Assembly: GCA_022402445.1 (NCBI GenBank)
Contig: JAKRSF010000004.1
Coordinates: forward strand, 648,120 to 712,119
Source of the DNA: Cyanobacteriota bacterium
GTDB lineage: Bacteria; Cyanobacteriota; Cyanobacteriia; CACIAM-69d
Direction: 5' to 3'
Length of the DNA: 64,000 nucleotides
Below are positions 53,806 to 64,000 of this stretch, piece by piece. Each line of letters opens with the position of its first letter. The stretch's first letter is position 1. The notes under the pieces are model-generated. The model did not search any database. It saw only the letters and a list, made by a program, of their open reading frames with translations, and was not told the DNA's origin. The position numbers and the translations under genes were made by a program.

Positions 53806-56403
53806 CTAGGCCGGTAGGGCCGCCCCCTCCTCAAACACGGCCCGGTAGGTGGGCAGCAGCCACGCCGGGAGCCGCTGATCCGCATTGCCCACCTTCATCT
53901 TTCCGGGCGGGTAGTACATCATCGCCCCCAGGAACGCCCTGAGGCCCGCCGGTTTCTCTAGGCCCGTCGCCACCTGCTGGGCGAGCTGCTGGAGGGTTTG
54001 GGTTTCCTCCGGCGTCAGGGCTTCCCGCTGGAATCCGCAGCGCAGGTAGGATCCGTAGCGCCGCCCGAATTCGCTATTGAACACGGCCTCCAGGCGATCG
54101 TCCGGCACGCTCAGCCACAGTTGGGTCACCTGCGATCGCATCTCTCGCAGTTCCGCCGCGATCGCCGTATCCGTCGGATCAATTTCGTAGAGATTCGTCA
54201 AACCCAGGAGCCGATTGAGGAACACCATATCCTCCAGCTTCTCGATGGCATTGGTGGGGGGCGGCGCGATCGGGGGCGGCGCAGTCACCACCGGACTAGC
54301 TGTCTGGGTTGGCACCGGTTCCGATGTCGGCACCGTCCCTGGTACCAAGGGCTCTGAGCGCGTCACCTCAAACACCGTCCGATAGTCCGGCCACAGCCAA
54401 GCCGGGAGCCGCGTCTGGGCATCCCGCACCTGCATCTTGCCCGGTGGGTAGTACAGCATCACCCCCAGGAACGCCTTGATGCCATCCGGCTGTTCGAGCC
54501 CCGCCGCCACCCGCTGACTGAGGGCCTGCACAAAGGCGGTTTCCTCGTCTTGCAGGGGCTCATTCTGGAACCCGCATTGCAGAAGCGCCCGGTACCGGTT
54601 CCCGAATTCGCTATTGAACACGGCCTCCACGCGATCGCCCGGCACCGACAGCCAGAATTCCGCCACCTGCCGCCGAATTTGCCGCAATTCTTCCACAATG
54701 CTTGGTTCGTCCGGGTCGATGTAATACAGGTTCGCGCAGCCCAGCATCCGGTTGAGGAACACCATGTCCTCGGCGAGGTTGGTCGGTGCGGCCACTGGCG
54801 CGGGTGCTGAGGAGGGGGTGGGTTGGTGTTGCGCGATCACGGCGAGGGCTTCCGGTGACTCGAATACCGCCTGATAGTCCGGCAGCAGCCACCCTGGTAG
54901 GCGTTCCGCCGCATTCTGCACGCGCATTTTCCCTGGAGGATAGTACAGCATGGCCGCCATCAGCGCCTTAAGACCATCTGGTTGCTCTACCCCCTCTCCT
55001 ACACGCTCAGATAGCGATCGCAGCCAATGCTGCTCCTCTGGCATCAGCGTCTGAGCCTGTACACCACTCTTCAAGAGGGCTCGATAGCACTGCCCAAAAT
55101 CAGACCCATATATCTGCTCCAATCGGCCATAATCCACGGTCAACCAATACTCGGATAATTGCCATCGTAGCTGACGTATTTCCGTAATAGTATCGGGGCG
55201 CTGCGGGTCAATGTAGTATGAATTCACACACCCAAGTAAACGATGAAGAAACACTCCATCCGTTGCGATATCCTGACTATTGGTATCCGGTGTTGAGCTG
55301 ATTTTAATAGGGCCACCACCATCCATTGCCGTGTTTTTGGGGGATAACGCCTTCTCGATAAGAGCGACTACTGAACTGGCAAGGTCGAAATCATGGTCAT
55401 CATTAGAGTTAGACATACGGCTTGATTTTGTTGTCGATTCATCATGAGGAACATCGAGTCCCGGAGGAGAATTCTGTAGCCAGCTCATGTCTGCAGGGCC
55501 GCGCACACTTCCCCACAGAGACGTTAGGGGAAGATATTGCGTCAGACATAAAGTTGACTCGTGAAGGGCTTGCAAATAGGGAGTATAGATTCTGGACCAA
55601 ACGACTTCCCAGTTGTCCGGACGTACATCATTGGGTGATACAGCGGCAAGATAACCTCTGTCTGGATCCAGTCGAATTCCCTGAAAATGGAAAAAGATCA
55701 GCGGCTGGTCGTCTACAAAAACCCTATCATCCTTGATACAGATGGAGTAGTTGGAAGCGTTCCAAAGAGCCAAGTTTGCCCCTTTGTGCTCAAGAGAGCA
55801 GACCTCAGAAAAACGCTCGAGCCAACTATCTAGATATTTTTGATCGGCAAATTTTCCATCTTCATATCGATCAAAGCACCACTCTAAGCATCGTTCTCTA
55901 TACCACTCTAAGCAACCTAGTCCAGTTACGTTATTTCTGAACGATAGCCAGCCCACATTATAGATGCCGTAACGCTCAAGTGCTTTTCGCTCTGGCGAGA
56001 AACGATGGGGGATAATGGCAATAGAACTGTCATCAATTTCTTGAAAGACAGACTCAGGGTTGTCAAAGAAAAACAGGTCAGAATCAAGATAGGTAATTAT
56101 ATCAATGTCATGATTTTCCTTGAGGAGAAAAAGTGGAAAGCAAGGGGTGCATGTAAAGTAATATTCAACAGTTGTTCTGGTTGGTTTGACTTTCAGCAAT
56201 CCCTGATCATAGTCTTCGAGATCTTTTAGAGGTATTGGGCATAAATTGGGAAGATTAAGAGTTTTAAGGGCCGTGTAACAGTCGGAGCTAAGGCATAAAA
56301 TCCAAAGGTGAAATTTGCTGTTGTAATGCTCCCGGAGAGAATTGTAGAGCGCAAGACCTTTGGGTAGGTAGTTGTGATCAAAATAGGTGCAAAAATAACG
56401 CAT
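53806..56403 (-). CDS. GT8-like glycosyltransferase with three tandem copies of an unassigned domain
   Basis: An 865-aa protein. Residues 1-~300 are a nucleotide-sugar transferase (MRYFCTYFDHNYLPKGLALY, DxD at Asp 107/109 in TYLDSDLFFFD, and FFHFQGIRLD), a type often seen in cyanobacterial polysaccharide loci. After a linker come three ~136-residue repeats (381-515, 544-679, 722-858). Their shared pattern is FLxRxLGxxNxYxIDP, WLxV, FG, YYPPGKMxV and RLPxWLxPxYxxVFE. I know no named domain for them. Pro/Ala-rich linkers separate them. The 5' part and the first repeat are AT-richer; repeats 2 and 3 are GC-rich like the chromosome to the left. It is the most downstream gene of the glycan cluster. 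Confidence 0.85.
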   Translation of the reverse strand: MRYFCTYFDHNYLPKGLALYNSLREHYNSKFHLWILCLSSDCYTALKTLNLPNLCPIPLKDLEDYDQGLLKVKPTRTTVEYYFTCTPCFPLFLLKENHDIDIITYLDSDLFFFDNPESVFQEIDDSSIAIIPHRFSPERKALERYGIYNVGWLSFRNNVTGLGCLEWYRERCLEWCFDRYEDGKFADQKYLDSWLERFSEVCSLEHKGANLALWNASNYSICIKDDRVFVDDQPLIFFHFQGIRLDPDRGYLAAVSPNDVRPDNWEVVWSRIYTPYLQALHESTLCLTQYLPLTSLWGSVRGPADMSWLQNSPPGLDVPHDESTTKSSRMSNSNDDHDFDLASSVVALIEKALSPKNTAMDGGGPIKISSTPDTNSQDIATDGVFLHRLLGCVNSYYIDPQRPDTITEIRQLRWQLSEYWLTVDYGRLEQIYGSDFGQCYRALLKSGVQAQTLMPEEQHWLRSLSERVGEGVEQPDGLKALMAAMLYYPPGKMRVQNAAERLPGWLLPDYQAVFESPEALAVIAQHQPTPSSAPAPVAAPTNLAEDMVFLNRMLGCANLYYIDPDEPSIVEELRQIRRQVAEFWLSVPGDRVEAVFNSEFGNRYRALLQCGFQNEPLQDEETAFVQALSQRVAAGLEQPDGIKAFLGVMLYYPPGKMQVRDAQTRLPAWLWPDYRTVFEVTRSEPLVPGTVPTSEPVPTQTASPVVTAPPPIAPPPTNAIEKLEDMVFLNRLLGLTNLYEIDPTDTAIAAELREMRSQVTQLWLSVPDDRLEAVFNSEFGRRYGSYLRCGFQREALTPEETQTLQQLAQQVATGLEKPAGLRAFLGAMMYYPPGKMKVGNADQRLPAWLLPTYRAVFEEGAALPA
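53830..54240 (-). repeat. Unassigned domain repeat 3 (residues 722-858)
   Basis: Starts DMVFLNRLLGLTNLYEIDPT and ends LPTYRAVFE. It is closely similar to repeat 2 (AVFNSEFGRRYGSYLRCGFQ, MMYYPPGKMKV), which suggests that these two duplicated more recently than repeat 1. Confidence 0.9.
54367..54774 (-). repeat. Unassigned domain repeat 2 (residues 544-679)
   Basis: Starts DMVFLNRMLGCANLYYIDPD and ends WPDYRTVFE. It shares AVFNSEFGNRYRALLQCGFQ and MLYYPPGKMQV with repeat 3 nearly word for word. Confidence 0.9.
54859..55263 (-). repeat. Unassigned domain repeat 1 (residues 381-515)
   Basis: The most divergent copy: FLHRLLGCVNSYYIDPQRPD at its start and LPDYQAVFE at its end, with the conserved MLYYPPGKMRVQNAAERLPG. 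At DNA level it is AT-richer than the other two. Confidence 0.85.
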
Positions 56404-56501
56404 AAGTTTAAGTTCGTTTGAGGAGACGTATGCAAAAGATCAGATTAAATATCTGATCTGGTCTGAATAGCAAAAGCTTTGATGTCTGTGTCTGCATTTG
56501 A

Positions 56502-57614
56502 TTAGCTTTTCTGGCCCCATGCTTTCAAAGAGAGAATGGTGCGTTCGACTTGATCGTTTGTTAATTGAGGATACATGGGTAAACTGCAAATCCGGGGGCG
56601 AATACTTTCAGTGACGGGCAGACCTAGGCTAGTGGTGTGGTGATGTTGGTAAGCAGGTTGTTGATGAACAGGCATGGGGTAATGTAAGCCGGTGCCAATA
56701 CCCTGATTCTTAAGGAATAACCGAAACTGATCGCGCTGATCGCACTGAATTACATATTGGTGGTACACATGCTTGACGGATAGCGCAATGGCAGGGGGGT
56801 GAAGTCTGGAAAGCTTTCCCAATGCGCTAGTGTATTGCTGAGCGATGGCTCGTCGGCAATCATTGTCCCTCTCCAAGTGACGTAACTTGACTCGCAGGAC
56901 TGCTGCTTGAATTTCATCAAGCCGTGAGTTCAAGCCTGCTTCGTGGCTGATGTAGCGATCTTTCCAGCCATATTCCCGCAGGGACTTGGCGCGATCTGCG
57001 AGGACGTTGTTGTTACTAATCAATACGCCACCGTCTCCGATCGCCCCTAAATTTTTCGTTGGATACAAACTAAACGCAGCGAAGTCACCCCAGGTGCCGG
57101 TGGTGCGGTCTCCCAATTTGGCACCATGGGATTGGGAACAGTCTTCGATCACCGCAAGCTGGTGCTCTTCGGCTAAAGCCATGATCTCGGGCATGGCAGC
57201 AGGATGGCCGTAGAGGTGAACAGGAATCACGGCTCGCAGGTTCGGAAATTCCTGAATTGCTTGGGCAAGGTGCGTGGGATCGAGGGTATAAGTATGGGGA
57301 TCGATGTCGAGGAGGATGGGGGTTGCCCCCACCAGTTCGATCGCGGCAACTGTGGCTACAGCGGTATGGGAAACGGTGGCCACAGCATCACCGGGACCAA
57401 TGTCGAGTGATCGCAAGGCCAATTCCAAGGCGTCAGTGCCGTTTGCTACGCCAACTGCGGCGGTAACCCCGATGTAATCGGCGAATTCTTGCTCAAAAGC
57501 AGCAACTTCTTGACCCAAGATGTACCAACCGCTGGCCAAAACACGGGCGATCGCGGTTTCAATCTCAGCCTGGTGGGCCAGATAACTGGCTTTGGGGTCG
57601 GTTTGGGGAATCAC
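56502..57614 (-). CDS. DegT/DnrJ/EryC1/StrS-family sugar aminotransferase
   Basis: A 370-aa PLP enzyme that aminates nucleotide-linked ketosugars. The PLP lysine is Lys 187 in FSLYPTKNLGAIGDGG, and the cofactor Asp is in VIEDCSQSHGA. Other family marks are VGVANGTDALELAL, PVHLYGHPAAMPEI and LNSRLDEIQAAVLR. It starts with GTG. It belongs to the glycan cluster with the epimerase downstream-neighbour gene and probably makes an amino sugar; resemblance to FdtB/QdtB-type 3-aminotransferases is an impression only. Confidence 0.92.
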   Translation of the reverse strand: MIPQTDPKASYLAHQAEIETAIARVLASGWYILGQEVAAFEQEFADYIGVTAAVGVANGTDALELALRSLDIGPGDAVATVSHTAVATVAAIELVGATPILLDIDPHTYTLDPTHLAQAIQEFPNLRAVIPVHLYGHPAAMPEIMALAEEHQLAVIEDCSQSHGAKLGDRTTGTWGDFAAFSLYPTKNLGAIGDGGVLISNNNVLADRAKSLREYGWKDRYISHEAGLNSRLDEIQAAVLRVKLRHLERDNDCRRAIAQQYTSALGKLSRLHPPAIALSVKHVYHQYVIQCDQRDQFRLFLKNQGIGTGLHYPMPVHQQPAYQHHHTTSLGLPVTESIRPRICSLPMYPQLTNDQVERTILSLKAWGQKS

Positions 57615-57704
57615 GGTGTTGATGGCTTCGAGTACTAGACCGGATTTTGTCCCCCCTGAGCCAAGCCCATGATCGGGTCAACAATCCATACCTGAGTATA
57701 AAGG

Positions 57705-58703
57705 CTAGAGGTAGTGTGCTAGGTGCTCCTGATAATAGTGCAGCGATCGTGCCAATCCGGTTTCTAAGGAAACTTGGGGTTGCCAGCCTAGGCAGGTGCG
57801 TAATTGCTCGTCGCTGGCATAGTAGTCCCCGATGTCAATACGTTTGCGATCAGCAGGAAAGTCGTGCACCGTAAATGATCCGCCTCCGTGAAGGTCGATC
57901 ATTAGTTGGGCTAGGTCTTGGAGCGGAATGGTGCGATCTCCTCCCACGTTAAATACTTGACCATTGGCAGCATCATTCGTGGCCGCTAACAGCATGGCGT
58001 TCACGGTGTCATCCACGTAGCTAAAGTCCCGTAGTTGTTCCCCGCCCCACACCTCAAAGGGTTTCCCTTGCACAAGCAAACGCAGCCAAATTCCTAGGAA
58101 CGTCTGCCGAGCATCTTTAACTCGCATTCTAGGGCCATAGGTATTTGTGAGGCGTAACGCACAGGCCCGAATGCCATAAACATTATTGTAAAGAATGTGA
58201 TACCATTCCCCGGCCATCTTATTGATGCCATTAACATCTACAGGCCGCAATAAATGATGCTCATCGACGGGCAAATAATCAGGCTTGCCATAAATTTGAC
58301 GAGTGCTAGCAAAAACGATTTTGATGGCAGGATTATATTTGCGACAGGCCTCTAGGATAGATAGCTGGGCACGGCAATTGATCTCAAGATCGGTGTAAGG
58401 ATCTTGCATAGAGTCCATGTGACTTGTTTGTCCAGCCAGATTGAAAAGATAGTCTTTTCCCTGGACGAGATAGCGCATACTATGCTCATCCCGCACATCT
58501 GAAATATTAATGATGACGTGATCTTGCACTGGTTCAATATTGAACCAATTTCCCCCGTATTCTGGGATTAAACTGTCAATCAAGGTGACTTTTGCTCCCT
58601 GACTGATAAGGGAGATCGCCAAGTTACTCCCGATAAACCCCAAGCCACCAGTGATTAGAATGCTTTTTTGGTGAAAATGAGATGTAGGAGTTACTGGACT
58701 CAT
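57705..58703 (-). CDS. NAD-dependent epimerase/dehydratase, extended SDR
   Basis: A 332-aa nucleotide-sugar modifying enzyme. The Rossmann motif is TGGLGFIGSNL (residues 18-28), the catalytic Thr/Ser region is FASTRQIYG, and LRLTNTYGPRMRVK follows. The YxxxK pair reads NGINK: Lys 162 is kept but the Tyr position is Asn 158. In most SDRs the Tyr is the catalytic base, so the chemistry may differ, although I recall the DVNGINKMAGE form in other epimerase-like proteins. A substrate such as UDP- or dTDP-sugar is not determined. Confidence 0.88.
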   Translation of the reverse strand: MSPVTPTSHFHQKSILITGGLGFIGSNLAISLISQGAKVTLIDSLIPEYGGNWFNIEPVQDHVIINISDVRDEHSMRYLVQGKDYLFNLAGQTSHMDSMQDPYTDLEINCRAQLSILEACRKYNPAIKIVFASTRQIYGKPDYLPVDEHHLLRPVDVNGINKMAGEWYHILYNNVYGIRACALRLTNTYGPRMRVKDARQTFLGIWLRLLVQGKPFEVWGGEQLRDFSYVDDTVNAMLLAATNDAANGQVFNVGGDRTIPLQDLAQLMIDLHGGGSFTVHDFPADRKRIDIGDYYASDEQLRTCLGWQPQVSLETGLARSLHYYQEHLAHYL

Positions 58704-58849
58704 GGGATGTTGCTCAAGGTGCGGAATTTAGTTTTAGAAACAAGAAGAGACCTTCCTGGTAGCACATTTCAAGCGATCCTTGCTTTTGGCTAACCATTAC
58801 GTACACATTGTCACATGTCCAGGCTCGTCAATAAGGTTGTGTGTTTGGT

Positions 58850-61800
58850 CTAAATAGATTTGAAAAGAAAGCCCCGAGCTTCGGCAGTTTCGGGAGCCCC
58901 AGGAACGGCGAATTGTTCGGCAATCAGGAACTCACGCTGGAGTTGAAGGTGTGATTGCCCAGCGCAGTCTAAAACCGCTTGACGGTTTAAGAACCAGCCA
59001 ATGTACTCCGTATGATACCCATAGGCATAGGGGCGTTGGACGACGACAAAGGATTGCGCCTGATGCACAACTGGCAAGCGAGTTAGGTAAAGATACTGGT
59101 CAGTGACTGTAGCTAAACGACCTAGAATGGTTTGCCAATCTTGGCAATATTGTAGGGAAGAACTGGACAAAACTAAGTCATAACGACGTTGGAAGCAGGC
59201 AACTTCATCTTCATAGAAGGTAGCTTGGGGTAACAGTTGCCGTCCTCCTTGGCAAAGCAGCGGGAGATCCTTGCAGTGATAGTCAATTTCTACATCAGGG
59301 AGCAGAGCTTGGGCGATTAGACAATATTGCCCAAGTCCTCCACCCCAATCGAGGATGGAAACTCGATCTTTTTTACGGGCGGCCAGAGCAAGGACATACC
59401 CAAAAGCCATCATGGTGTTGTGGGATCCGTAGCTGGCGGCGGTGACATTGGGGGATTCATGGCTGATACCCAAGGGCGAGGTGGTGCGTAGGGCAGCGGC
59501 AAAGTCATCCCATTTTGCCCGTTGGGTTTCAAGGATACTTTGCACATTCCAGCCCAGAATGTGGGGATCTTGGGTTTGCCAGCCCTGGGGCAAATATTCC
59601 CACTCCGGGCGATTGGGTGGGGGGCTGCTGTTTGCAGGATTAGAGGCCATCGCTGGGGCGGGGGGTGGTGCCGATCGCACTTGAATGGCGGGAATGAAGG
59701 GATCCCAGGTCAGTGCCAGGTTGAGGCTGGTGGTGTTGGGATGGGTGAGGCCGAAGTGCTGCTGAAGGGTGGGTTGGGTGTCCGCCGTCAGGGTGATTAC
59801 TTGGCGGGCATGGTGGTAGAGTTCAGCTAGATCGGTCAGGCAAGGGGCAAAGTTGTGGGCAACCGTAGGATCGGCGGAAGCAACAACGATGACGTAGGGA
59901 ATACCGCGATCGCGGGCGACCTGCTTGGCAGCAAAGTTGGAGAGGGGGCAGGCATCCCCGAAGATGATGAGTTCTGGTCGGATCTCGTTGACCCATTGCT
60001 CGAATGAGACGCGATCGCCCATGCCCAGATGAAACTCAGTTTGGGGATTGTAGGGCAGTGATCGCTGGTTGAAGCCACCCTGGGGCTTAGGGTTGGGGGT
60101 GATGCATGTGAGGGTATGACCGGCCGTCGCGAGTTGTTGGGCGATCACCAGGCGATGCTGGTCGAGATCCGGGTGATCGGGCCAATCCACTTGAAAGAGC
60201 ACAGGAGCGTGGCCTTGGGGTGTAGCTGCTTGCGAGGACCGGGTTTGACGCTCTTGGGCAACGAGATCATTGGCGGCAGGATTGCGGGAAATCCGTAGCG
60301 GCAACTCTAATGTGCGACCTAGGGGTTTGGGCACAAATTGCTCACGAGCCAGAGTTGCATAAACCGACTTCACCTCTAGCAAGTTACCATCCTGAACCGC
60401 ACGAATGCCGCGGTCAGCAGGAATCATCAACCGCCAATCGCACTCCAGCACCCGAAACCCAACTGACTGCGCTAGGTAGCGTAAACAGTCGGGGGTATAT
60501 CGCCAGTAATCGTTGGGCGAAGGGTGGTAGGGGTAGGAGAATACCGTGGATAAAATCAAGAGTCCATCTGGACGCATGATTTTGTGAAAGGCTTCAAAAA
60601 TCTCGAATGGGTTGTTGACATGTTCGAGAACACTTAAGCAGACAGCCGTGCCAAAGGCCTCTGGATATTTAGCTGGGAGTTCTTCAATGTAAGGCTCGCC
60701 GTTTTCGGGGTTGATGATGGCGTAGCCAGGGGCAATGTGATCGAAGGGGCGCTGTTGCAGCCCGACAAATCGTGCCTGCTGATCTCCAGTGCCTACCGTC
60801 AGGTCATAGTCAGCAATGACTGGTTGGGCTAGCCCACCGAGATCCACAAAGGGCTGCTGACAGCCATATTTCTCAACTTGCTGCGTAACGAGTCGGATAT
60901 CGTCCCAAAACATTTCGCGATCGCTCTCCCCGGTAGCAATAGTGGATGGTGGGGCGGGCTGAGCCGCCGTTGCTGGCACTGGTTGACTCCCAGCAGGTCG
61001 GTTTTTTTCTCCCTTGGTCACTAACGATACAACAGTTGGGTGGGGGTCACGACCGGACAGATAGCGATGCACAATGGCATCTAGTTCGGCCATGCGGTGG
61101 CGATAGGTGTGGTCGCGGAGGGTGCGAGCTTGACCGGCACGGGCGATCGCCGCGCGTTCTGATTCATGATCAAGTAAATAGCGCACCTTTTCGATGCATT
61201 CTGCGGCATTGCGGTAGGTGACGACTTCGCGATCGGGTTCAAACAACTCATGCAGGTTGTCCTTGGCATCGGTGACTAAACACGTCCCCACACCCGTTGC
61301 TTCATACAACCGCATGTTGTTGGCATAGCGCTCTGCTACGTCAATGTGGCGATTGAGGGCCATCTTCGAGTTGGCAAGGAGCTGAAACATTTTCAGTCCC
61401 CAGGCTTCTCCGTGATAGCGCTGCTTCAAAGACCAGTCGTCTGGCAACAGGCTCCCACCATAGCCCCAACAATCAATGGGTGTTTGCCGGGCCACTGCTT
61501 CAAAAATTTGAATTCCGGCCTGATGGTTGGGTGAGAATCCCCCAATAAAGCTTGTGTTGTACGATGGGTAATTTTTCTGGATTTTGCTTAAGACTCTAGG
61601 TTCAAAAGCAAGCTGGAAATACTCACTTTGGGTTCCTTGATTCCGAAATCGGGAAACATAGTGCGGGAATGACGTTAATACTAAGTCATAAACACGAAAA
61701 TCAAGATTAGATCGCAATGGACAGGCATTCTGACCAATAATTAATTTAACAAAGGGACGGACTGAACGTAATAACTCTTCCTGCGTCCAATTAATATCAT

Positions 61801-62134
61801 GGATATACAAAATATCGGGACGATAAGTCTCGATTTGTCGTTGTAGAACCTGATGTTGCCAAGCATAAACTTCTTCAGGACGAGTTGGAAAACCCAAGTC
61901 ACGAGCTGATTCCAGTGCCCATCGCTGTTGCAAAATTTGGGCATTAACAAGAATTTCTGTTGACTGATGTCCGAGATTTTGCAGATTCCAAGAGAAGAAA
62001 TCGGAAGTCCCAAAGCATTGCTGTAATAAAACAAGCAGTTGATCCGCGTAGGAAGTCTCAGAGATTCCTGAGTGTGTACTATAGAATTCAGAAATAAATT
62101 CTTCGTAATAGGTCGTAGTAATAAGGTACTTCAC
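58850..62134 (-). CDS. Four-module glycosyltransferase-methyltransferase protein
   Basis: A 1094-aa protein. Module 1 (1-~370) resembles CgeB-type glycosyltransferases: FIGGFSPNHQAGIQIFEAVA, then NNMRLYEATGVGTCLVTDAK. A Pro/Ala linker (375-400) follows. Module 2 (~405-640) is a SAM methyltransferase with a degenerate motif I (FVDLGGLAQPV) but a clear CLSVLEHVNNPFEIFEAFHK and MRPDGLLILSTV. Module 3 (~645-815) looks like the N-terminal lobe of a GT4 enzyme without its C-terminal lobe. Module 4 (~850-1094) resembles TIGR04325-type methyltransferases (SILDWGGGLGQYCLIAQALL). It starts with GTG. It probably adds and caps sugars on a surface glycan. Confidence 0.85.
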   Translation of the reverse strand: MKYLITTTYYEEFISEFYSTHSGISETSYADQLLVLLQQCFGTSDFFSWNLQNLGHQSTEILVNAQILQQRWALESARDLGFPTRPEEVYAWQHQVLQRQIETYRPDILYIHDINWTQEELLRSVRPFVKLIIGQNACPLRSNLDFRVYDLVLTSFPHYVSRFRNQGTQSEYFQLAFEPRVLSKIQKNYPSYNTSFIGGFSPNHQAGIQIFEAVARQTPIDCWGYGGSLLPDDWSLKQRYHGEAWGLKMFQLLANSKMALNRHIDVAERYANNMRLYEATGVGTCLVTDAKDNLHELFEPDREVVTYRNAAECIEKVRYLLDHESERAAIARAGQARTLRDHTYRHRMAELDAIVHRYLSGRDPHPTVVSLVTKGEKNRPAGSQPVPATAAQPAPPSTIATGESDREMFWDDIRLVTQQVEKYGCQQPFVDLGGLAQPVIADYDLTVGTGDQQARFVGLQQRPFDHIAPGYAIINPENGEPYIEELPAKYPEAFGTAVCLSVLEHVNNPFEIFEAFHKIMRPDGLLILSTVFSYPYHPSPNDYWRYTPDCLRYLAQSVGFRVLECDWRLMIPADRGIRAVQDGNLLEVKSVYATLAREQFVPKPLGRTLELPLRISRNPAANDLVAQERQTRSSQAATPQGHAPVLFQVDWPDHPDLDQHRLVIAQQLATAGHTLTCITPNPKPQGGFNQRSLPYNPQTEFHLGMGDRVSFEQWVNEIRPELIIFGDACPLSNFAAKQVARDRGIPYVIVVASADPTVAHNFAPCLTDLAELYHHARQVITLTADTQPTLQQHFGLTHPNTTSLNLALTWDPFIPAIQVRSAPPPAPAMASNPANSSPPPNRPEWEYLPQGWQTQDPHILGWNVQSILETQRAKWDDFAAALRTTSPLGISHESPNVTAASYGSHNTMMAFGYVLALAARKKDRVSILDWGGGLGQYCLIAQALLPDVEIDYHCKDLPLLCQGGRQLLPQATFYEDEVACFQRRYDLVLSSSSLQYCQDWQTILGRLATVTDQYLYLTRLPVVHQAQSFVVVQRPYAYGYHTEYIGWFLNRQAVLDCAGQSHLQLQREFLIAEQFAVPGAPETAEARGFLFKSI

Positions 62135-62172
62135 AGGATTTTCTATAAAAATTTATGTCAATAACAGACTCT

Positions 62173-63042
62173 TTATCGTGGTTTTTCTAAAACCATGAGG
62201 ATGCCATTATTTTGAAAGTGTTGTCTACCGGGATGGAGTTGTTGTAGGAGTGAGTGGGTATAGTCCGGGATAGGGCTCGGAAATGTTAAAGATAGGTTTT
62301 CAATATTAAATAGACTTTGATGCACAAAAGCTAGATAGTCTTCTGTAAACAGGCGATTGATGTGATGAGACTGATAAACATAGTAAACAATCTTTTGAGC
62401 TGTTTCGCGATCAGTATGTTGGCACAGATATTGACATAGTTCGGCGGGCTTCATCAAAAGGTGTCCCCAGGGCGGAATGGGAGATTGACCGTGGTTGAAA
62501 ACTTGGCCGGTGCGATCACTGATTTGGGGCAGGTGGTGGCCATCATGGGCTGACCAGATGGGTGAAAACATCGAGAAAAGCTTGCCACCGGGCTTCAGGG
62601 CATGAAACATCTTGTCCAGGGCTAGGGGGAAGGGCTGGATGTGTTCAAAGGCAGCGATCGAAAAGATTAGGTCATAGTGTCCGTAGTAGGACTCTGGTAG
62701 GTCTTCAATATTGGCCCAGAGGAGACGATAGCGATCAGGGCGCATGGGGCCATAGCCTCGTTCGGCGATCGCCCCCACTGCTGGATTTTTGATGTCACTG
62801 CCCGTATGTACCGATCCACCGGCTGTCTGTAGTTCTGCTTCATAGGCGGGTGCTTCCAAGGCAGTCCAAGTCCTAGCTCCGAGATCATCAAAGACAAACT
62901 CTTGAGGTAGGCTACCTCCCACTTCAAGGATATGTTTGCCCTCAAAACCCACCATCTGCTCACAACATTGCGCGTAGCTAACATGATAGGTCAAACCAAA
63001 TTTGGCTTGACACCTAGGCACTTGGTCACTGGTTAACAGCAT
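62173..63042 (-). CDS. SAM-dependent methyltransferase
   Basis: A 289-aa class I methyltransferase. Motif I is HILEVGGSLPQEFVFDDLGA, and the downstream pattern is DLIFSIAAFEHIQPFPLALD, then ALKPGGKLFSMFSPIWSAHD. It has no signal peptide. It begins 6 bp after the frame-corrected end of the oxygenase-like gene and ends 38 bp before the four-module gene, so the three are probably one transcript. The acceptor, probably a sugar or glycan lipid, is unknown. Confidence 0.85.
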   Translation of the reverse strand: MLLTSDQVPRCQAKFGLTYHVSYAQCCEQMVGFEGKHILEVGGSLPQEFVFDDLGARTWTALEAPAYEAELQTAGGSVHTGSDIKNPAVGAIAERGYGPMRPDRYRLLWANIEDLPESYYGHYDLIFSIAAFEHIQPFPLALDKMFHALKPGGKLFSMFSPIWSAHDGHHLPQISDRTGQVFNHGQSPIPPWGHLLMKPAELCQYLCQHTDRETAQKIVYYVYQSHHINRLFTEDYLAFVHQSLFNIENLSLTFPSPIPDYTHSLLQQLHPGRQHFQNNGILMVLEKPR

Positions 63043-63048
63043 ACTGTA

Positions 63049-63983
63049 TCAACACAAGGCATCTAGTGAGTCAAAAACCCAATGAGAATTTTCACGCAAA
63101 TACTCAGGCATCATCATAAAGTGGCGACGCAACGAAAGGTGGGAGAAGATGTTAAACGCCCAGTAGCACCAATGTCGTTGTAGAGAGCGCGAGCCGCAAG
63201 GTGTAGGGAGCGACTCAGAATCCAAGGGAGGCGATCACGCTTCATAGTAAAGCTTCCAGGTAGACAACCCGCCGCACCTAAATCTGCGTTTGGCACATCA
63301 CTCAGGTAGAGAATTGCTCTATAAACATCTCGTCCTTCGTCAACATGAAAGTAACTGGAACGACCAGTTCCATAAGCCAAGTCTTGATAATCTGACTGCC
63401 ACCATCCCGCATGGGGAACTGATAACTCTAGAGCAAAGCCCGAGAGGGTAGAATGTTCGCGACGGGCAGAACGCATGGCAGAGCTGATTCCCAAGGCTTC
63501 AAATTGTTGATTGAGATATTGAACTATTTCGCGTGGAATTTGGTTAATAGATAACTCTTCACGGCTGTTGATCCCTTGGTCTGCTCGGGATTGAATCGTC
63601 TCCATCCAAAGTTGAAGGGCACGGTGAAGATTATGTACGATCTCTTGGGGAATGTGGCAAGTGAAAAAGCCTTGCTGCTCCAGCAACCGGTATATATTCA
63701 GCTCATGCTGATTGCTGACGACTGGATTCAGGGAGTTGCGACGCTCAAAGTAAGCCAAATCGTCAACTAAGATTCTGATCGTCTGTTGCCACACAGAAGT
63801 CAGGAATTCTTGGACATTCGGGATTTGAGATTTGTTTATGTTATTGAGATGCGTGAAAGTTTTAGCTAGCTTCGGTAATATTTTATGAATCGCGTCTTGT
63901 AGAGAAAGGCGATTACAGGACAGCGAGGTTTCTAAGGACAAGGACTCAATCTCATGACTAAGATCTTGGCAATCCTCCATCAT
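63049..63983 (-). pseudogene. 2OG-Fe(II) oxygenase-like gene with apparent frameshift
   Basis: As read, the frame ends at 63114 after 289 aa, in the shadow-like tail GRLTSSPTFRCVATL. The metal motif is His 213-x-Asp 215 in SSYFHVDEGRDVYRAILYLS, typical of phytanoyl-CoA dioxygenase-like enzymes. In another frame the same DNA reads AFNIFSHLSLRRHFMMMPEY and continues LRENSHWVFDSLDALC to a stop at 63049, which looks like a natural C-terminus. One extra G in the GGG at 63159-63161 (minus strand) would join the two halves. It is either a sequence error or a genuine frameshift. The role, hydroxylation of a lipid or sugar, is not known. Confidence 0.65.
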
Positions 63984-64000
63984 TCTGTTCTCAAAACCAC

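Follow-up and report, generated by a model that had tools for sequence, protein, structure and literature searches.

The window, by which we mean the whole 64,000-nt stretch of cyanobacterial DNA that was analysed, contains an ORF at 53806-56403 that a preliminary description had read as a glycosyltransferase (GT) carrying three tandem copies of an unrecognised domain. The coordinates were right, but the gene lies on the minus strand; the plus strand in the frame of 53806-56403 is full of stops. The ORF, its parts, its neighbours and the RTX-related features of the same genome are listed here.

53806..56403, minus strand: intact 865-aa ORF (ATG at 56403), a GT-like head followed by three C-terminal repeats
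55534..56403, minus strand: putative GT head, residues 1-290, with a conserved YLDSDL (DxD) motif; GC 42%
55264..55533, minus strand: linker, residues 291-380; GC ~49%
54859..55263, minus strand: repeat 1, residues 381-515; GC ~53%, GC3 54%
54367..54771, minus strand: repeat 2, residues 545-679; GC ~63%, GC3 81%; the repeat modelled with AlphaFold
53830..54234, minus strand: repeat 3, residues 724-858; GC ~63%, GC3 81%
56502..57614, minus strand: DegT/DnrJ/EryC1-type sugar aminotransferase, adjoining the ORF here and its unfused homologs elsewhere
57705..58703, minus strand: NAD-dependent sugar epimerase/dehydratase of the same syntenic block
58850..62134, minus strand: 1094-aa glycosyltransferase/methyltransferase fusion, found in the same block in locus L148 and, as its N-terminal part, in L110
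18088..20313, plus strand: 741-aa protein bearing RTX repeats (PF00353); the window genome has many RTX proteins
G000:C7:544000-560000 (locus L152), ~148 kb from the window ORF: exporter/RTX cassette of the window's own genome

The three tandem repeats of ~135 aa were recovered as described, at residues ~381-515, ~545-679 and ~724-858, together with the motifs quoted for them (AVFNSEFG and YYPPGKM among others). Across 135 gap-free columns, 58 are invariant among the three copies, and the pairwise protein identities are 64% (repeats 2 and 3), 54% (1 and 2) and 50% (1 and 3), with DNA identities of 70%, 57% and 57% in the same order. Repeats 2 and 3 are therefore the closest pair, but the earlier wording that they are far closer overstates a moderate difference. 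This difference is accompanied by a split in composition, GC3 being 54% in repeat 1 and 81% in the other two. A profile built from the three repeats recovers each copy at E < 1e-75, which places their similarity far beyond chance, and profile A2 matches them at E 1e-53 to 1e-48. The head had been called GT8-like, and a conserved DxD-type motif is indeed present; however, neither Pfam, NCBIfam nor the PDB sequences gave it a family or structure assignment, and no GT8 model matched. The label "GT8-like" is accordingly used here as a reading of the DxD motif in YLDSDLFFF. The ORF also contains no GT41 catalytic domain (PF13844) by Pfam scan.

The repeat itself was found to be an unnamed domain in the family libraries searched, as had been suspected. 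Searches against Pfam, NCBIfam and PADLOC returned nothing beyond weak hits, a profile search of the PDB sequences with the repeat returned nothing, and text searches of the literature for the motif or for a prior description of the domain gave nothing relevant. When 87 members of the repeat family were scanned singly against Pfam, no family matched consistently and no TPR appeared among the 25 families listed; TPR or another named repeat was dismissed on this ground. A role in anti-phage defence was likewise set aside, the PADLOC matches being weak, and no phage record encodes a repeat protein. AlphaFold modelling of window repeat 2 with 87 sequences (model m77cc401ecd2e) gave a confident, all-helical structure (pLDDT 95.3, pTM 0.89), and a Foldseek search with it through PDB and BFVD, libraries without predicted cellular structures, yielded nothing below E = 1. 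The repeat is thus predicted to form an all-helical module of ~125-135 residues, and a single copy resembles no characterised domain in these searches.

A first scan of genome contigs with the three window repeats revealed no relative. Profile searches of 386 cyanobacterial genomes, by contrast, matched in 40 genomes and 22 of 142 genera with the profile of the three window repeats, and in 42 genomes with the 87-member profile, the two extra matches being marginal (E ~8e-4). A domain missing from the family libraries searched is therefore present in about a tenth of the sampled cyanobacterial genomes, and the proposal of an accessory domain fused to many cyanobacterial GTs held up. The module occurs in three settings. 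In the first, it stands directly before a GT41 catalytic domain (PF13844), an arrangement seen in 25 domain+GT41 proteins; proteins of this setting range from 640 to >3000 aa and often carry GT2 or GT4 domains in front. The GT41 domain is present in relatives such as those of L034, L055 and L057, the last a protein of 642 aa, and a joint model of domain and GT41 was confident (pLDDT 92.7, pTM 0.91). In the second setting, one to four C-terminal copies follow GT2, GT4, GT41 or methyltransferase domains and, in the window, the GT8-like head. The third is a stand-alone protein of ~300-380 aa with two repeats, found in the small-genome family f19, identified through its named relatives as Synechococcus/Prochlorococcus. 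This last form shows that the module can work when no enzyme is part of its polypeptide. Both the position before GT41 and the stand-alone form lay beyond the view of the preliminary description, as did the fusion-like make-up of the window ORF discussed below.

By a significant profile match C-terminal to its GT head, the window ORF belongs to the repeat-tail family. In a tree of the repeats its copies group with tail and stand-alone copies, and the pre-GT41 copies, with a few tail copies, lie apart from most of these. The distribution supports an accessory module that is common to many cyanobacterial glycosyltransferases. The window's own genome also encodes a 1861-aa protein (L034, G000:C11:132000-150000) with several GT2 domains, one module and GT41. 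Outside the main range, a 599-aa protein of a more distant class (L104:4774-6573, minus strand, G004) has a weak module match (E 8e-4) before a GT2-like region and may be a distant member of the family.

We then examined the gene neighbourhoods of the relatives. In Synechococcus WH7803- and Prochlorococcus-type loci, the two-repeat gene is followed in fixed order by a GT4 gene (PF12000), an RTX-like gene (PF00353) with a Gly/Asp-rich product and a TPR-GT41 gene, after which a further GT41 gene lies on the opposite strand. This order was found in the 12 loci with enough flank, including Synechococcus WH7803, MU1642 and several Prochlorococcus, although loci of one lineage are not independent of each other. 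RTX matches are scarce in some of these genomes, numbering 13 in G274, 3 in G272 and 1 in G264. Elsewhere in f19, the two-repeat gene has as its neighbours a GT4 gene, a C39-type ABC exporter with HlyD, or both, and several of these loci also encode a short Gly/Asp/Asn/Ser/Thr-rich protein. In 10 genomes of the filamentous family f10, and in G227 of f28, a domain-bearing GT gene immediately precedes the genes for rotamase, C39-type ABC exporter and HlyD and points in the same direction as they do. The same slot in f10 is occupied by GT41-type carriers in one lineage and by GT2-type carriers in another. The close HlyD subfamily (E < 1e-70) is single-copy per genome and lies no more than ~6 kb from the domain gene in 11 of the 12 genomes in which it occurs.

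These observations are not of equal weight. RTX motifs are abundant in large genomes (184 matches genome-wide in G099), making RTX proximity weak evidence there; the proximity statistics in large genomes were consequently set aside in favour of the single-copy HlyD linkage, and the argument is carried by the HlyD linkage and by the fixed gene order of the small genomes. In the L152 cassette of the window's own genome, a 742-aa RTX-like protein and a homolog of HlyD are encoded together with a type I-like ABC exporter similar to the one in L056; no repeat module lies beside them. At L055:1477-3414 (plus strand), in the vicinity of a type I exporter and a domain+GT41 gene, lies the gene for a 646-aa RTX protein, equal in length to published oscillin.

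Cyanobacterial RTX surface proteins of the SwmA/oscillin type are tied to motility or the cell surface, and the RTX-like genes adjoining the module look like members of this class. SwmA of Synechococcus appears to be glycosylated; the RTX surface protein oscillin is highly so (PMC3034196). A passage of PMC4293000 that cites a study of SwmA-affected mutants describes the loss of swimming in marine Synechococcus upon disruption of three GTs. Taken together, the placement before GT41, the RTX and exporter neighbours and the published glycosylation argue for a recruitment module that holds either the acceptor protein or the team of GTs on it before export. That the module recruits GTs in some manner is in our judgement likely. 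More tentatively, and as the reading we prefer, it would be non-catalytic and gather GTs on an acceptor common to them; surface proteins of RTX type that receive their glycans before secretion are the likeliest candidates. We infer the protein binding, the RTX acceptor and the lack of a catalytic role from sequence, predicted structure and gene order. The preliminary description had suggested a lipid carrier, a glycan or a partner enzyme as the ligand; the neighbourhoods point instead to a fourth candidate, an acceptor protein from among the secreted, calcium-binding RTX surface proteins, and after it to the partner enzyme. A widespread, swappable tail with such neighbours would probably help GTs hold the protein being decorated.

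In this scheme, the module would bind the shared acceptor, most likely an RTX-type (Gly/Asp-rich) surface protein still in the cytoplasm, or alternatively fellow GTs on that acceptor. Enzymes adding successive sugars would thereby be gathered on the same substrate before the type I exporter takes it out. Copies of the module would have been added as tails to other GT or methyltransferase heads, others exist as a free two-repeat protein, and in the window three copies would be fused to a GT-A-like enzyme that is encoded separately near repeat-bearing genes in other lineages. It is conceivable, with less confidence still, that these parts make up an undescribed, general cyanobacterial system glycosylating type I-secreted RTX surface proteins in the cytoplasm, with a new acceptor-recruitment domain common to GT41, GT4, GT2 and GT8-like enzymes and a free adaptor. 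Such a system would include the abundant marine Synechococcus and Prochlorococcus, and a module found on unrelated GT heads and free beside an RTX gene would offer a direct handle on RTX glycosylation. A partial parallel exists in the glycosylation of serine-rich-repeat adhesins by GtfA/GtfB, where a partner without catalytic activity manages the acceptor on behalf of a GT4 enzyme. The two-repeat protein, encoded on its own next to a GT4 gene, resembles this arrangement; GtfB itself, however, has a GT-B fold.

The main rival, in our view rather unlikely, is an enzyme-docking module for O-antigen or exopolysaccharide assembly, which would bind other GTs or a common scaffold and so join successive transferases into one complex, with a lipid-linked glycan and not a protein as the substrate. 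Nucleotide-sugar clusters that lack RTX genes house many of the carriers, and the module is found with no RTX gene nearby in family f1 and most f2 loci. The window ORF is among these carriers: no RTX or type I secretion gene adjoins it, ~33 kb separate it from the nearest RTX gene found, and its neighbours look like a nucleotide-sugar/surface-glycan island, so that the acceptor could be a glycan. Homo- or heterotypic docking would fit the presence of several copies in one protein and of many carriers in one genome, and the interchangeable heads are consistent with it as well. Docking for glycan assembly does not readily explain, however, why an RTX-like gene and GT41s accompany the stand-alone protein in picocyanobacteria, or why carriers are tied to the type I secretion operon in f10 and f28; moreover, characterised GT41 enzymes have proteins as their substrates.

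A module that binds glycan or lipid carrier, its repeats holding the acceptor sugar or a polyprenyl carrier, appears improbable. Tandem copies fused to GTs recall what is often seen in carbohydrate-binding modules, but the predicted all-helical fold lacks the beta-sandwich usual in these, and the place before GT41 is that of the protein-binding TPR and AAD domains. In OGT/SPINDLY, whose GT41 catalytic domain is shared with the GT41-bearing relatives (PF13844; Foldseek E ~1e-25), TPRs occupy the site where the repeat, non-TPR by Pfam, stands in one GT41 type, and separate TPR-GT41 proteins are often encoded near module genes.

A slightly less probable reading again is that the repeat is homologous to the HMW1C all-alpha domain (AAD), though greatly diverged from it, and recognises acceptor peptides in the same way. 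The AAD occupies the same place before the GT41 catalytic domain, and the profile alignment of the catalytic part starts at equivalent points (residue 206 on the module side and 226 in HMW1C; E 5e-12). In the HMW1C-like AaNGT, the N-terminal AAD reads the acceptor peptide, Arg177 and Asp215 recognising the N-X-S/T sequon (PMC10507012). Gene layout and an alignment by eye had suggested this homology, but profile-profile comparison, Pfam models and Foldseek did not support it, and we keep it as a rival. Profile comparison with the ApHMW1C N-terminus (a sequence checked by its near-identity to PDB 8j30/3q3e) gave no AAD signal, and a single repeat matches no PDB fold below E = 1. PF18071 and PF18254 had no match in 96 and 8 cyanobacterial genomes, respectively, a weak argument as the control genomes were silent too, nor among the 87 repeats. 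The domain+GT41 model fits ApNGT (TMq 0.59, rmsd 10.9 Å by Foldseek) no better than TPR-type GT41s such as the TPR-OGTs.

No sequence relation, and no clear relation of fold, was seen between the module and the AAD in these comparisons. GT41-bearing relatives resemble HMW1C as soluble enzymes with a helical N-terminal domain before GT41 and, as we infer for the module, in that large surface proteins, secreted and encoded nearby, are glycosylated in the cytoplasm. Secretion in HMW1C systems is two-partner, whereas the module loci have type I (ABC/HlyD) genes; the module, unlike the AAD, also occurs in tandem tails on non-GT41 heads and alone; and the window protein, unlike HMW1C, has no GT41.

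Finally, we considered how the window ORF itself arose. Its full-length form is the sole copy among the 6 genomes of its own family, but repeat tails occur in all 6 with differing heads: GT8-like in the window, GT4 in G045 and G421 (which G429 resembles) and GT4 plus methyltransferase in G411. In L043, L110 and L113, homologs of the window genes lie near a separate two-repeat gene, with identities of 38-39% for the head, 46-49% for the aminotransferase and 57-62% for the epimerase. In L148 (G066, another family) the whole block is present as a homolog of the 1094-aa GT, the epimerase, the aminotransferase and an unfused GT head, and ~5 kb after it lies a gene whose 1580-aa product combines five repeats with a GT41 domain; the 1094-aa GT homolog recurs in L110. 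Because these homologs stand near separate repeat genes elsewhere, the window ORF looks, at sequence level, like a fusion of genes that are separate in other genomes, and a fusion in one genome of genes that lie side by side in others usually points to a functional link.

The GC content rises from 42% in the head through 53% in repeat 1 to 63% in repeats 2 and 3 and 66-68% in the genes next downstream, indicating that the ORF straddles the edge of a low-GC sugar island. Repeats 2 and 3 have a composition like that of the resident genome, which fits their being the closest pair. The same rise inside the ORF, and the lack of this exact fusion in any other genome searched, could suggest a non-functional or artificial junction between an acquired GT gene and a resident repeat gene, but 865 open codons, a gradual shift in which repeat 1 takes the middle place, equivalent tails carried by different heads in the rest of the family and an assembly 99.93% complete in 13 contigs make this very improbable.

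The low-GC surface-glycan island occupies the window end (53806-64000) and L108 (G000:C7:710000-729000). Read from its ORFs and scanned in part, it encodes NeuB-like synthase, asparagine-synthase-like, N-acetyl-sugar amidotransferase-like and SpsF-like proteins as well as aminotransferases, epimerases and a UDP-sugar dehydrogenase. The 1094-aa protein consists of a GT4-like part, a methyltransferase, a second GT4-like part and a TIGR04325-like methyltransferase, and is split into two ORFs in L148. Two-repeat genes were also seen on contigs labelled Crocinitomicaceae and Deltaproteobacteria (L121 and L122), which are probably misbinned; the neighbours in L121 are of picocyanobacterial type. In one picocyanobacterium (L067, G255:C1:119139-119917), the two-repeat gene is split over several frames, possibly as a pseudogene, beside a 1484-aa RTX-like gene.
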